Shown here in pieces: positions 30,288 to 35,286 of a stretch of DNA of 37,680 bases; positions within the stretch are counted from its first letter, which is position 1; the number at the start of each line of letters is the position of its first letter. The translations under genes were made by a program, and so were the position numbers. The notes under the pieces were generated by a model that was not told where the DNA came from, ran no database searches, and worked only from the letters and a program-made list of their open reading frames with translations. The DNA is from Acidimicrobiales bacterium (GTDB lineage: Bacteria; Actinomycetota; Acidimicrobiia; Acidimicrobiales; SZUA-35): contig JAHEJO010000006.1 in NCBI GenBank assembly GCA_024638805.1, forward strand, positions 1-37,680. The letters run 5' to 3'.

Positions 30288-31574
30288 CTACCGGGTGGCC
30301 AGTACCTCGGCGATGCCGACCTCGGCGAGCCCGGCCAATCCCGCCCGGAACTCCTTGCGGCCGGCCTCCAGGTCCGCATACCCGGCAGCGGTGTAGTACA
30401 CGGTCATTGCCGACGGCCGCTCGAAAGCGACCACGCCCTCGTCGGGGGTGATCGGTCGGCCGACCGACGGCTTGGCGACGTCGTACATCGTGTGCATCGC
30501 GGCGGTCGGGAACGCCGACGGGACGACGATCACATGGCCGATGCCGTCCTCTTCGAACGCCGCCAGCGCGTCCTCGATCGTCGGCTCGGCATAGTTCATC
30601 CGACCGGTACGCGTTGGCCACTGCAGAGCAGCGGCGATCTCGTCGTGGAACGCCGACTCAATCGGTCCCAGGTCCGAGAAGATCTCTCCCTCTCGCCAAC
30701 CGTAGGACGGGTCAGCCGGCACGTATGGTGTGCCGTGGGCGGCGAGGAGCACGCCGATGTCGTCTTCGGCGACGGTCGCCGGCACTGCGGTCCGAAGCTC
30801 CTCGGCCATCGACACCACCGCGGCCTTCACATGGGCGCGCATCTCGGGATCCTCGAAGAACGGAGCGACCATCACCACGTCGATCCCGCCCGTGAGGGCT
30901 GCGGCAGCCTCGGTCTGCTCCTCGACCTCCTGGGTGTGGGTCGAGCTGGCCAGCAGCATGGGCACGACGACGATCGCGTCGTACCCGCCGTCCTGGTCGA
31001 TCTCCCACATGACGTCGGGGATGCGCGGGATGGCATCGAGGAACGCCAAGCGTGTGACGATCTCGGCGCCCTCGACGTGAGAGTCGACCGCGGCGACGTG
31101 CTCGGCGAGCAGCTCGTTGTGCGGGCTCTGGTCACCGAACGATTCGTAGATCTCGACGACCTCGTCGTGGAACGCCTCCCAGGTGAAGAACGGTGGCACG
31201 TCACCGGCCGGTGAGATCTCCATCTCGTGGGCGACGTCGTTGCCATTGACGTCGGGGAACACGTAGGTCATGGCGGTGGCGATCTCGTCGTAGGCCGCCG
31301 CCCACTCGGTGTGTTGCATCTCGACCGGTGTGCCGAGGGTTGCGGCGTGCGGGCCGAACTCGCTGCCGTCCGGGAAGCTGACTACGACGTCGCCGTCGGC
31401 GACGTGAGCCGGTTCGCCGTGCCCGACGAACAACAAGACCACCCGAGTAGTTGATGGCTCGGTCGTGGTGGTGCCGGTGTTGGCGGCTTCGGTGACCATC
31501 CCGTCGTCGCCGCCGCCGCAGGCAGCGGCCAGCAGGCACATCACGGCGATCCAACAACCGTGTCGAGCATGCAC
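30288..31574 (-). CDS. Lipoprotein with tandem chelatase-like (CbiX/ferrochelatase superfamily) domains
   Basis: A 428-residue exported lipoprotein. The signal peptide (CWIAVMCLLAAACGGGDD) places the lipidated Cys at residue 19. Two related alpha/beta halves follow. The first begins VVLLFVGHGEP (His 52), continues through AYDEIATAMTYVFP, and ends AIVVVPMLLASSTHTQEV. The second has IGVLLAAHGTPYVPADPSYG and IGHVIVVPSAFPTAAMHTMY. The His-Gly motif after a beta strand and the downstream PMLL/PSAF strand with His match class II chelatases (CbiX, ferrochelatase), which insert metal into tetrapyrroles. Those enzymes are cytosolic, so an exported form is unusual. GTG 31574 has GGGAGAG upstream; the longer open frame before it is noise. 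Function is inferred only from fold-level likeness. Confidence 0.72.
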   Translation of the reverse strand: MHARHGCWIAVMCLLAAACGGGDDGMVTEAANTGTTTTEPSTTRVVLLFVGHGEPAHVADGDVVVSFPDGSEFGPHAATLGTPVEMQHTEWAAAYDEIATAMTYVFPDVNGNDVAHEMEISPAGDVPPFFTWEAFHDEVVEIYESFGDQSPHNELLAEHVAAVDSHVEGAEIVTRLAFLDAIPRIPDVMWEIDQDGGYDAIVVVPMLLASSTHTQEVEEQTEAAAALTGGIDVVMVAPFFEDPEMRAHVKAAVVSMAEELRTAVPATVAEDDIGVLLAAHGTPYVPADPSYGWREGEIFSDLGPIESAFHDEIAAALQWPTRTGRMNYAEPTIEDALAAFEEDGIGHVIVVPSAFPTAAMHTMYDVAKPSVGRPITPDEGVVAFERPSAMTVYYTAAGYADLEAGRKEFRAGLAGLAEVGIAEVLATR

Positions 31575-31707: not shown

Positions 31708-34497
31708 TCAGAACTTGCCCGAGTTGACCCATTCCTTCTTGGGCGGCACGACTTCGGTGTTGTCCCAATGCTCGACGACCCGGCCGTGTTCGATGCGGAA
31801 GATGTCGACGTGGGCGACGCGTGTCCCCGCTCGCCTGGCCTTGCACAGCGTCGCGACGAAACTGCCTTCGCCGACCAGCAGGACGATCTCTTCGTAGGCC
31901 AACGGGCCATGGGTGCGCGCCGCCTCCCGCAGTGCACTTCGCCCATCTGCGAACGATGCGTTGTGCTCGATGTGATTGCGGGCGAGGTAGCGGTCGATCT
32001 TGTTCGATTTGTGGCGTTGAATCAGGGTCTTCTCGATCATCGATCTCACAAGCGCTTTGTTCTTGTCGGTGTGGGCGACATCGCTGATCTGGGTCGTACC
32101 GTCGGTCACCGAGCGCCATGATCCTCGTTCGCGGGTGTGTGGCGCCACGGCGTCCCAATGCTCGATGATCGAGTCGTTGGCGTCGAAGGCATAGAAGTCG
32201 GTGGTCACCCACTCGCTCCTGCCGTTGTTCAGACTCTGGAGTCCGTGGAGGAAGACGTAAGGTGCGTCTGCGATCGAGCGGATGACCCGCACGGATCGCT
32301 GCGGGTTCTGGTGGACGAACCGCTCGGCGTACTCGATGAAACCGTCGGCTCCGTCCCGTGTGCCGGCGCTGTGTTGGATCAGACGATCACCGAGGTGAGC
32401 GTCAACTGCCTCTCTGGGTCGCCCTTCGTGGAGGGCGCGGAGGTGAAAGTCGATGGCATTGTCCCGTATCGCATCGATCCGACTCCGTCCTGAATAGAGC
32501 GCGTCCTCGGAAGCGTCCTCTTCGTCGACCACCTCGATCTCGACGTCGTCCACTGCGATTCCTGCGTCGTCTTCTGCGATCTCGACGTCGTGCTCGGCGA
32601 TTTCGAGATCTTGCGCGGCCACCTCGCGATCGTGTTTGGCGATTTCGAGTTCGGCGGTTTCGAGGGCGTCCTTGTCCGCGACCGGCGCACCGGTGGTTTG
32701 TACGGCGTCGTGATCGGCGTCAACGGTCCGTTCGGCGTCGCCTGCGGGAGGCATTTCGGGGGTCTTGACGCGAACGGCACCCTTCAGGCCGGTCGCTTTG
32801 CGAGCAGCGCGTACGCACTGCGAGATGCTGTGCCAGATGTGCTCATCGCCGAGGGTGTCGAGGAAGCCCGACCGCTCGAGAACCGACGACACAGGGTGAA
32901 TGACCCGGGCCAGGTAGAGCCTGATCCCGCGCCTGGCCAACTCACCATGGAGATGTTCGAGCATGTCTGCGCTGGTCGAGTCGAGTTGGGACGTCGCCTC
33001 GAGGTCGAGTACGAGGGCGCGGGCGTCGGGCCACTTGTCGATCTCGCGCAGCAGGCGATCCTCGATCGCGGTGGCATTCGCCCAGAACAGCGGTGCGTCG
33101 AGCCGGATGACGACGATCCCGGGCACCGTTCTGCGGGTCGTGTGACCGCGCATCCGACCCCACGCCGCCTTCTCCGCAGCGATCTTGCCGAGCACCTCCA
33201 TCCGCGGCGAGCTCGACCGGTAGATGATGGCGAGCAGGGACGTCACGATCGCGACGCCGAGTCCGGGTAACGGACCGAGCAGCACGACACCGCCGATTCC
33301 CACCATCGCAGCGACGAAGTCAGCCCGCCGTATCTTCCGAAAGCGCCGCAGCGCAGCGATATCCATCAATCCCCAGACCGCGGCCACGACGATTGCGCTC
33401 AACACGGCTTGCGGCAGATCGGTGAAGACCCAGGTGAAGGCGAGCAACACGACCACGACCAGTCCGGCGGCGGACAGGCCCGTGACTTGACTGCTGCTCC
33501 CGGCCTGATCGGCTGATGCCGTCTTCGACAGACTCCCTGCCACCCCGAGGCCCCCTGACAGGCCGGCGCCGATGTTGGACGCTCCCATCCCGACCAGTTC
33601 GTACTCGGTCTCCACGCGATACCCGCCGCGCGTCGCGAACAGCCGAGTGGCCGCGAGGCCCTCGGCCATCGCGACCAGCGCCAACGATGCGCCTCCCACG
33701 ACGACGGCGCCGAGGTCCTCGCGGGGGATGATCGGAAGACCGAGTGGAGGTAGCCCACCAGGCACCTCGCCGATCGTTGTCACCCCCTCCGACTCCAGCG
33801 CCAGCAGCTTCGATGCCGTAACGGCGCCTACGAGCGTCACCAGCCCCCACGGCACGCGGGACGAGATTCGGCGACCGCCCAGCAGGATCGCAAGGGCCAG
33901 CCCGCCGACGATCGCCGTCGTCGGGTCGGCGTCGCCGATCTTCCCGATCGTGCGCACGAAGATCTCGATGAGGGTGCCCTTGGGTTTGGGGATCCCGAGC
34001 AGTGTCGGCAGCTCGCCGACCACGATCGTGAGCGTCAGGCCGAAGACGAAGCCGGTCACGATCGGTTTGGAAAGGAACTCGGCAACCCAGGCGATTCGCA
34101 ACAGACCGGTTGCGATCAGGACGATGCCGGCCGAGATCGCGAGTGCGGCAGTGATCGCGACCGCGTCCTCGGGATTGTCGCTGGCGATGTCGGCGACGAG
34201 CGAACCGGAGACGATCGCAACGGTCGACGCCGGGCCCACGATGAGCTGGGGCGACGAGCCGAGGACTGCGTACGCCAGTAGTGCCAGCGGTACTGCGTAG
34301 AGACCGACCTCTACCGGGACTCCGGCAATCCGTGCGTAACCGAGTGACTGCGGAATCATGAGCGCAGCCACGATCGCTCCTGCCACGATGTCGCCCCGTA
34401 GGCGGCTCCGGTCGTACAGCGGCAGCCACTGTACGATCGGCAACGCCTTCGCGGCAGCTCTCCAACTCATGCGACGGCGCTCCGTCGAGTTGTTCAT
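31708..34497 (-). CDS. SulP-family anion transporter fused to STAS, a 7-residue-repeat linker and two SnoaL-like domains
   Basis: A 929-residue membrane protein in one uninterrupted frame. Residues ~20-430 form a SulP (SLC26) transporter with the signature MIPQSLGYARIAGVPVEVGL and ~10-12 hydrophobic segments. Residues ~457-565 are a STAS domain with LDSTSADML (D506). Residues 617-658 are six tandem 7-residue units of consensus [LV]EIAxxD. Then come two SnoaL/NTF2-like domains: ~673-808 (with IQHSAGTRDG and EHWDAVAP) and 809-929 (with IEHNASFADG and EHWDNTEVVP). SulP proteins carry sulfate, bicarbonate, nitrate or other anions, and the substrate is unknown here. SulP-STAS is standard; the doubled SnoaL tail is not known to me. 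The start is ATG 34495-34497. The gene runs toward the chelatase-like lipoprotein gene. Confidence 0.87.
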   Translation of the reverse strand: MNNSTERRRMSWRAAAKALPIVQWLPLYDRSRLRGDIVAGAIVAALMIPQSLGYARIAGVPVEVGLYAVPLALLAYAVLGSSPQLIVGPASTVAIVSGSLVADIASDNPEDAVAITAALAISAGIVLIATGLLRIAWVAEFLSKPIVTGFVFGLTLTIVVGELPTLLGIPKPKGTLIEIFVRTIGKIGDADPTTAIVGGLALAILLGGRRISSRVPWGLVTLVGAVTASKLLALESEGVTTIGEVPGGLPPLGLPIIPREDLGAVVVGGASLALVAMAEGLAATRLFATRGGYRVETEYELVGMGASNIGAGLSGGLGVAGSLSKTASADQAGSSSQVTGLSAAGLVVVVLLAFTWVFTDLPQAVLSAIVVAAVWGLMDIAALRRFRKIRRADFVAAMVGIGGVVLLGPLPGLGVAIVTSLLAIIYRSSSPRMEVLGKIAAEKAAWGRMRGHTTRRTVPGIVVIRLDAPLFWANATAIEDRLLREIDKWPDARALVLDLEATSQLDSTSADMLEHLHGELARRGIRLYLARVIHPVSSVLERSGFLDTLGDEHIWHSISQCVRAARKATGLKGAVRVKTPEMPPAGDAERTVDADHDAVQTTGAPVADKDALETAELEIAKHDREVAAQDLEIAEHDVEIAEDDAGIAVDDVEIEVVDEEDASEDALYSGRSRIDAIRDNAIDFHLRALHEGRPREAVDAHLGDRLIQHSAGTRDGADGFIEYAERFVHQNPQRSVRVIRSIADAPYVFLHGLQSLNNGRSEWVTTDFYAFDANDSIIEHWDAVAPHTRERGSWRSVTDGTTQISDVAHTDKNKALVRSMIEKTLIQRHKSNKIDRYLARNHIEHNASFADGRSALREAARTHGPLAYEEIVLLVGEGSFVATLCKARRAGTRVAHVDIFRIEHGRVVEHWDNTEVVPPKKEWVNSGKF
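32524..32649 (-). repeat. Six 21-bp coding repeats in the SulP fusion linker
   Basis: This stretch encodes six consecutive 7-residue units (residues 617-658), four of them close to [LV]EIAxxD and two diverged. The DNA is an imperfect 21-bp repeat. It lies between the STAS and first SnoaL-like domain and is strongly acidic. The regular spacing suggests an extended or helical spacer. Confidence 0.85.
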
Positions 34498-34657: not shown

Positions 34658-35113
34658 TCAGTCGGGGGCGCCGTAGACCGTCTCTATGGGGGCGGGGTCC
34701 AGGAACATTCGGATGCTGGCGATGCGCCCACCGCGGAAGTCGATCTTGGTGACCATGTCCCATGTGACCGGAGGCCTTCCGAAGAACGAGGCGGTCTCGC
34801 GCTGGGTGTAGTAGAGCGAGTTGCCGGCGACGGCGAGGTCGAACGGGACGCCGGATCCGTGCTCGATGACTTCGTGCTCGTTCTCGTAGTCATAGCGTGC
34901 GACGATCTCGTCGATTCCCCGGCGCTCCGCAAACAGCGGTCGCAGCGGCTCCCACGACGGGGTGTAGTTCGACCAGAAGACGATGTCGTCGGCCATGTAT
35001 CCGGTCAGTTCCTGCACGAACTCGGCGGCCGATATCTCGTTGGCCGCATACCTTGACGTTGTGGCGGACAGTGCCCCCGAAATCGTCAAGATCGCATCGT
35101 CTCGGGACTCCAT
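34658..35113 (-). CDS. SnoaL/NTF2-like protein
   Basis: A 151-residue cone-fold protein without signal peptide. It runs from ISGALSATTSRYAANEISAA, through MADDIVFWSNYTPSWEPLRP, RRGIDEIVARYDYENEHEVI and NSLYYTQRETASFFGRPPV, to IASIRMFLDPAPIETVYG, the alpha+beta order of NTF2-like superfamily members. Such proteins range from enzymes (isomerases, cyclases, dehydratases) to ligand-binding subunits, and this one cannot be assigned. The start is ATG 35111-35113. It lies upstream of the SulP-SnoaL fusion on the same strand, separated by 160 bases, so this locus holds three SnoaL-like domains. It is divergent from a VOC-family gene. Confidence 0.8.
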   Translation of the reverse strand: MESRDDAILTISGALSATTSRYAANEISAAEFVQELTGYMADDIVFWSNYTPSWEPLRPLFAERRGIDEIVARYDYENEHEVIEHGSGVPFDLAVAGNSLYYTQRETASFFGRPPVTWDMVTKIDFRGGRIASIRMFLDPAPIETVYGAPD

Positions 35114-35286
35114 GGCACCTCGTCTCGGTTGGCCGAACGGGCCCGACTGTAATCGACACACCGTTGGCGATGCACTGGCCTGGGCGGCCCAGGTCCACGG
35201 CCATGCCGGTCGGAACAGGCTCCACCTGGTGCTGGCGAAAAGGCCGAATATCTCCCGGGCCACCCGAACGTGTGCGAGAGTGCGTC

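Follow-up and report, generated by a model that had tools for sequence, protein, structure and literature searches.

Why do the cytosolic ends of SulP transporters, proteins that occur across life, bear STAS domains and sometimes enzymes? The question is addressed by a gene from an Acidimicrobiales bacterium, lying within a stretch of 37,680 nucleotides (the window). In this gene, the sequence encoding a SulP transporter and its STAS domain runs on, through an acidic repeat linker, into two SnoaL/NTF2-like domains. The fusion thus offers a natural test: do SulP tails process cargo, sense a ligand, or merely ride along?

The fused protein and its parts

A preliminary description of the window reported one uninterrupted frame of 929 codons, encoding a complete SulP transporter with its STAS domain, six acidic repeats of 7 residues each, and two SnoaL/NTF2-like domains with common signatures. 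All of this was borne out (Table 1), the number of repeats being about six. The frame (34497..31708), for which no strand had been named, lies on the minus strand. It opens with ATG and contains no internal stop codons, and stop codons are present on the plus strand across the same region. GC content by codon position stays coding-like across the linker and the tail (in the linker, GC1 is 0.84, GC2 0.26, and GC3 0.72).

Table 1. Features of the fused gene, with coordinates in the window and residues in the encoded protein
Feature	Residues	Coordinates	Strand	Evidence
Fused gene (SulP, STAS, acidic repeat linker, two SnoaL/NTF2-like domains)	929 aa	31708..34497	minus	uninterrupted ORF, Pfam
SulP transmembrane domain (Sulfate_transp)	33-399	33301..34401	minus	PF00916 (E 2.5e-85), TIGR00815 above cut-off, alignment to 7lhv
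STAS domain	456-556	32830..33132	minus	PF01740 (E 4.4e-17), match to PDB 2kln
Acidic linker	571-668	32494..32787	minus	31 D/E vs 7 K/R
Six 7-residue repeats, consensus D-L/V-E-I-A-E-x	616-657	32527..32652	minus	TRF, period 21
First SnoaL/NTF2-like domain (QHS 708, EHWD 779)	686-780 (Pfam)	32158..32442	minus	PF12680, AF2 model
Second SnoaL/NTF2-like domain (EHN 844, EHWD 909)	807-929	31711..32079	minus	PF12680 (second stretch), 3g0k match, AF2 model, alignments

The domains place the protein in the SulP/SLC26 family, with scores (287 bits for PF00916 and 62 bits for PF01740) above the curated cut-offs, and TIGR00815 is matched at 388.5 against a cut-off of 380.5. Narrower identities were rejected: by the NCBIfam equivalog cut-offs, 880 bits are needed for the bicarbonate transporter BicA and 614 for the dicarboxylate transporter DauA, and the protein scores 151 and 112, respectively. 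In AtSULTR4;1, the residues named for the sulfate site include Q112, Y116, E347, S392, and Arg393, and Glu347 is required for proton-driven transport (PMC8298490). The alignment to 7lhv puts Q50, Y54, E279, and S324 of the fused protein at the first four positions, and Lys325 (K325) in place of the arginine. Because E279 keeps the glutamate that proton-driven transport in AtSULTR4;1 requires, we infer from the sequence that the SulP part is an H+-coupled importer of a sulfate-like oxyanion. Between the SulP parts of the fused protein and of its orthologue in G417, a genome of the same family, dN is 0.12 and dS is 0.97, from which it follows that the transporter is under purifying selection.

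The DNA of the linker consists in part of 21-nt tandem repeats (32523-32653, detected by TRF). At a lag of 7, residues 609-664 match themselves at 19 positions, a number reached at any lag by only 1 of 20,000 shuffled sequences. The well-formed units are ELEIAKH, DREVAAQ, DLEIAEH, DVEIAED, DAGIAVD, and DVEIEVV.

The tail matches SnoaL_2 (PF12680) in two stretches, with a score of 42 bits (E 2.6e-7 in the whole protein and 1.4e-10 for the tail alone), and the SnoaL family is matched as well; the second domain scanned by itself falls below the Pfam cut-off. Membership in the SnoaL/NTF2-like superfamily also agrees with the cone fold of both domains. Two NTF2 cones are predicted with confidence in an AF2 model of the tail (pLDDT 93, pTM 0.91). 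The best Foldseek matches of this model are Lsd19, 3g0k, iota-carbonic anhydrase, SnoaL2, and ketosteroid isomerase. Most of these nearest solved folds are small-molecule enzymes: Lsd19 (an epoxide hydrolase, itself a tandem), SnoaL2, and ketosteroid isomerase.

Both neighbors of the fused gene are on the minus strand. The upstream gene (within 34658-35263) seems to encode one NTF2/SnoaL-like domain on its own, its SnoaL_2 match (E 0.021) falling short of the Pfam cut-off. The downstream gene (within 30288-31574) encodes a ferrochelatase/CbiX-like protein that is probably exported, to judge from its lipoprotein-like N-terminus (CLLAAACGGG), which would be unusual for a chelatase.

The tail and its stand-alone relatives

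The preliminary description knew of no doubled SnoaL tail on a SulP protein, and no published SulP-SnoaL fusion was found in a literature search. The doubled SnoaL unit itself, however, is widespread. It constitutes a recognizable family, whose members stand alone, at about 255-270 residues, in bacteria of hundreds of species. When the species collection was scanned with a profile built from the tail, at least 543 related loci came up, whereas a scan of genome contigs with the window's own tail as the query gave no match. The best 80 of these loci span Actinomycetota, Bacteroidota, Rhodothermota, Chloroflexota, Pseudomonadota, Bacillota, and others. In most of the stand-alone proteins, only a few residues precede the first NTF2 helix, and the chain finishes in NxGKF or similar; the fused protein ends in VNSGKF, common to the family. 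By the test of conserved columns, the tail is a member: it retains all 16 that are invariant in an alignment of 69 rows (QH, D, EHWD, N, H, EHW, N..KF).

Is the tail a working copy or a relic? In a tree of 41 rows, its branch is 1.48 changes per site long, compared with a median of 0.19 for end branches, and this could mean relaxed constraint. It falls in a clade (support 99/98) with free proteins of Acidimicrobiales, Lewinella, a Flavobacteriales genome, Rhodothermaceae, and a Chloroflexi genome, though its exact place is unsure, because its make-up is unusual and its branch long. Yet at about 49% identity to its nearest relative, the tail keeps not only the 16 invariant residues but also 42 of 48 strongly conserved columns. 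Were all sites drifting equally to 49% identity, the probability of such conservation would be about 2e-8, a value that takes neutral decay as the only null and so speaks to constraint rather than to what the tail does. Since all the invariant residues have survived fast evolution, the tail is not decaying; the pattern of its residues shows the constraint to be like that on a functional copy.

In the neighborhoods examined among these loci, which reach at most 6 kb on each side, no SulP gene adjoins a tandem SnoaL gene except in the window. A substrate common to the two parts is therefore not independently backed by gene context. Of 69 loci (within L054-L133), 29, spread over several phyla, have an AraC-like regulator gene within 500 bases of the tandem SnoaL gene, the name AraC having been assigned by inspection of sequence and not by family scan. 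The two make up a recurrent, apparently uncharacterized pair. The fusion draws attention to a large and apparently uncharacterized family with a recurrent AraC-regulator neighbor, whose culturable hosts include Ruegeria. As a separate observation, tandem SnoaL genes of oral or animal-associated Firmicutes (L077, L078, and L081 from Streptococcus; L082 and L083) share ABC transporter neighbors.

Some members of the family are themselves joined to other domains. In Acidimicrobiales, the tandem SnoaL unit is found behind one ABM-like (dimeric alpha-beta barrel) domain, and in Bacteroidota, apparently behind two (L036, L138, L142, L149, L103, and L128 in all). The name ABM-like rests on resemblance, as Pfam models gave no confirmation. 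The family would thus seem prone to fusion.

Possible roles of the tail

The preliminary description suggested that a transported anion, or a ligand related to it, is sensed or chemically processed on the transporter itself; this is one reading among several. The explanation put first here, at about an even chance, is that the tail is a tethered, still-active module, catalytic or small-molecule binding, attached to an H+-coupled oxyanion transporter where it faces the cytosol. According to this model, which draws on sequence comparison and the predicted fold, one lineage would have acquired an in-frame fusion of a SulP-STAS gene with a gene for tandem SnoaL (a double NTF2 fold). The SulP part would import a sulfate-like oxyanion with protons and form the usual SLC26 dimer. 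Both the STAS domains and the tail would face the cytosol, since the tail follows STAS, which is cytosolic in the SulP family. The acidic repeat linker would hold one SnoaL pair per subunit, each pair folding as its own pseudo-dimer. The tail would retain its chemistry, but its job may have changed once it became tied to the membrane, and its target or its regulator may be something close to the exit of the transporter. The proposal is weighed down by the single metagenome-assembled genome, the long branch of the tail, and the surroundings of the stand-alone copies, which were often near AraC regulators and never near SulP. It nonetheless ranks above the three alternatives, which are taken here in descending order.

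STAS domains are thought to dock regulators, and perhaps the SnoaL pair has lost catalysis and now binds a ligand so as to regulate the transporter by way of STAS. This is unlikely, although it comes nearest to the favored explanation. Contacts between STAS and the core modulate transport in AtSULTR4;1 (PMC8298490), and NTF2-like domains fused to the OAD gamma subunit of a sodium pump have been proposed as ligand sensors (PMC3924330). The fast evolution of the tail is also what an altered binding pocket might show. Against it, both cones keep every invariant polar residue of what are presumed to be active sites, and the full-length fold predicted without an alignment (pLDDT 37) was too poor to show contact between tail and STAS.

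Or perhaps the fusion was an accident and the tail is tolerated, SnoaL doing its ancestral job, unrelated to transport, while merely anchored to the membrane. The restriction of the fusion to one lineage, the lack of any link between stand-alone relatives and SulP, and the readiness of the family to join ABM-like domains all fit an incidental join, as does the host genome, where no other tandem-SnoaL copy was found. But the long branch implies that the tail has changed more than its free relatives, and the linker with its repeats is a more elaborate structure than the short acidic tail of the G417 orthologue. This explanation is doubtful too and is placed behind that of the sensor.

The join and its parallels in known systems

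How far does the fusion extend? The nearest orthologues of the SulP part are those of G417 (80% identity) and G704 (67%), followed at 50-54% by about a dozen in another family and by that of G222. All of them end shortly after STAS and lack a SnoaL tail; the G417 protein terminates in ...EIDLDADDEVEILDDEDANDLRTVEDDASPRPEA, a short acidic tail with neither repeats nor SnoaL. As the close orthologues end there and the tail stands alone elsewhere, the fusion amounts to two known parts that were joined at old gene ends in this lineage specifically. The preliminary description had counted separate genes in close relatives against a true fusion. The parts are indeed separate there, but they are unlinked, and the in-frame join here is not undone. 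Comparison by tblastx with G417 or G704 gave no synteny at the DNA level beyond the SulP gene, other matches resembling the noise of GC-rich frames.

No second genome carrying the fusion was found among roughly 1,150-1,550 searched. The sets for the whole-protein search, which overlap, comprised the 60 nearest relatives, 39 family members, about 400 genomes of the order, about 400 of the phylum, the families of G704 and G761, 25 tandem-SnoaL genomes, and 198 genomes of the phylum of G802 (this last scan run without a positive control). Of 1,553 genomes counted as searched, about 400 of the order were searched twice, with the tail profile and with the whole protein; the collection contains about 98,000 genomes, and the number of distinct ones covered was thus roughly 1,150. 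Given that coverage and a wide scan that yielded the best 80 loci, further cases may exist. Several candidates were set aside. In G810, the upstream part of an apparent STAS-SnoaL chain is an unrelated RecX-like gene. Of the long open frames upstream of tandem SnoaL, those of L034 and L084 gave no sign of a real fusion, and those of L036, L138, L142, and L149 contain the ABM-like domain.

The join itself falls right after the acidic tail and exactly at the start of SnoaL, that is, at the former end of one gene and the former start of the other. The position aligned with the stand-alone SnoaL start codon is ATC, the ancestral start having been lost. From residue 582 up to the tail there is no in-frame ATG, and the GTG codons in frame (626, 649, and 656) have no clear ribosome site upstream. 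Neither of the other two minus-strand frames has a stop between about codon 592 and 698, which means that a single missed indel near the join could not turn the sequence back into a pair of normal genes. An artefact, either a chimeric assembly or a base error between two adjacent genes (e.g., a substitution removing a stop), might be suspected where the fusion is in none of the relatives and the host is one metagenome-assembled genome (a 2.79-Mb draft in 213 contigs, 84.6% complete), but it is very improbable: a chimera would have had to hit the ends of both genes by chance and preserve the frame, codon-position bias is kept, the standard SnoaL start is absent, the acidic tail is common to the fused protein and the G417 orthologue, and the argument from frames tells against a missed indel, though not against a stop-removing substitution.

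Stand-alone tandem SnoaL proteins (from Acidimicrobiales, Lewinella, Rhodothermaceae, Chloroflexi, Streptococcus, and others) have the same two-domain unit and motifs at about 30-49% identity and end in NSGKF/NxGKF as the tail does, but they are free, often beside an AraC regulator, and on much shorter branches. AtSULTR4;1 and other STAS-bearing SLC26/SulP transporters have the same full transmembrane and STAS domains, with the Q, Y, E, and S of the sulfate site conserved; the fused protein differs from AtSULTR4;1 in having Lys for Arg393 and in adding 373 residues after STAS. The tandem epoxide hydrolase Lsd19 (3rga) and iota-carbonic anhydrase (7c5x) resemble the tail in having two or more NTF2 cones per chain, but at only 9-12% identity.

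The iota-carbonic anhydrases bear on the boldest form of an improbable idea, that the SnoaL pair is an enzyme converting the ion or acid imported by SulP, its NTF2 cones handling CO2/bicarbonate as those enzymes do. They are defined by an (H)HHSS motif and a CaMKII-AD or COG4337-type domain (PMC8132391, PMC8425729). The tail has EHWD instead of HHSS, and CaMKII_AD gave no match up to E 10; membership was rejected, leaving a likeness of fold only.

The closest parallel in design is the fusion of SulP-STAS with carbonic anhydrase, for which Rv3273 is an example (Felce and Saier 2004, as cited in PMC6458275). There, too, an enzyme-like domain is at the C-terminus of SulP, and this enzyme is presumed to work on the ion that SulP transports. 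The Pfam scan of the fused protein found no carbonic anhydrase domain, so it is not one of these. Within the same genome family, L005 (G035:C135) contains an 812-aa SulP-STAS frame running into beta-carbonic anhydrase-like sequence (CSDARVPP), likely another such fusion. C-terminal enzymes on SulP are thus already known, and what is new, as far as the searches reach, is the partner: the known fusions carry a beta-carbonic anhydrase, and the protein described here, confined to one lineage, carries a SnoaL/NTF2 pair. If the pair did convert the cargo, the coupling of transporter to enzyme would have been invented independently a second time, next to the case of SulP-carbonic anhydrase.
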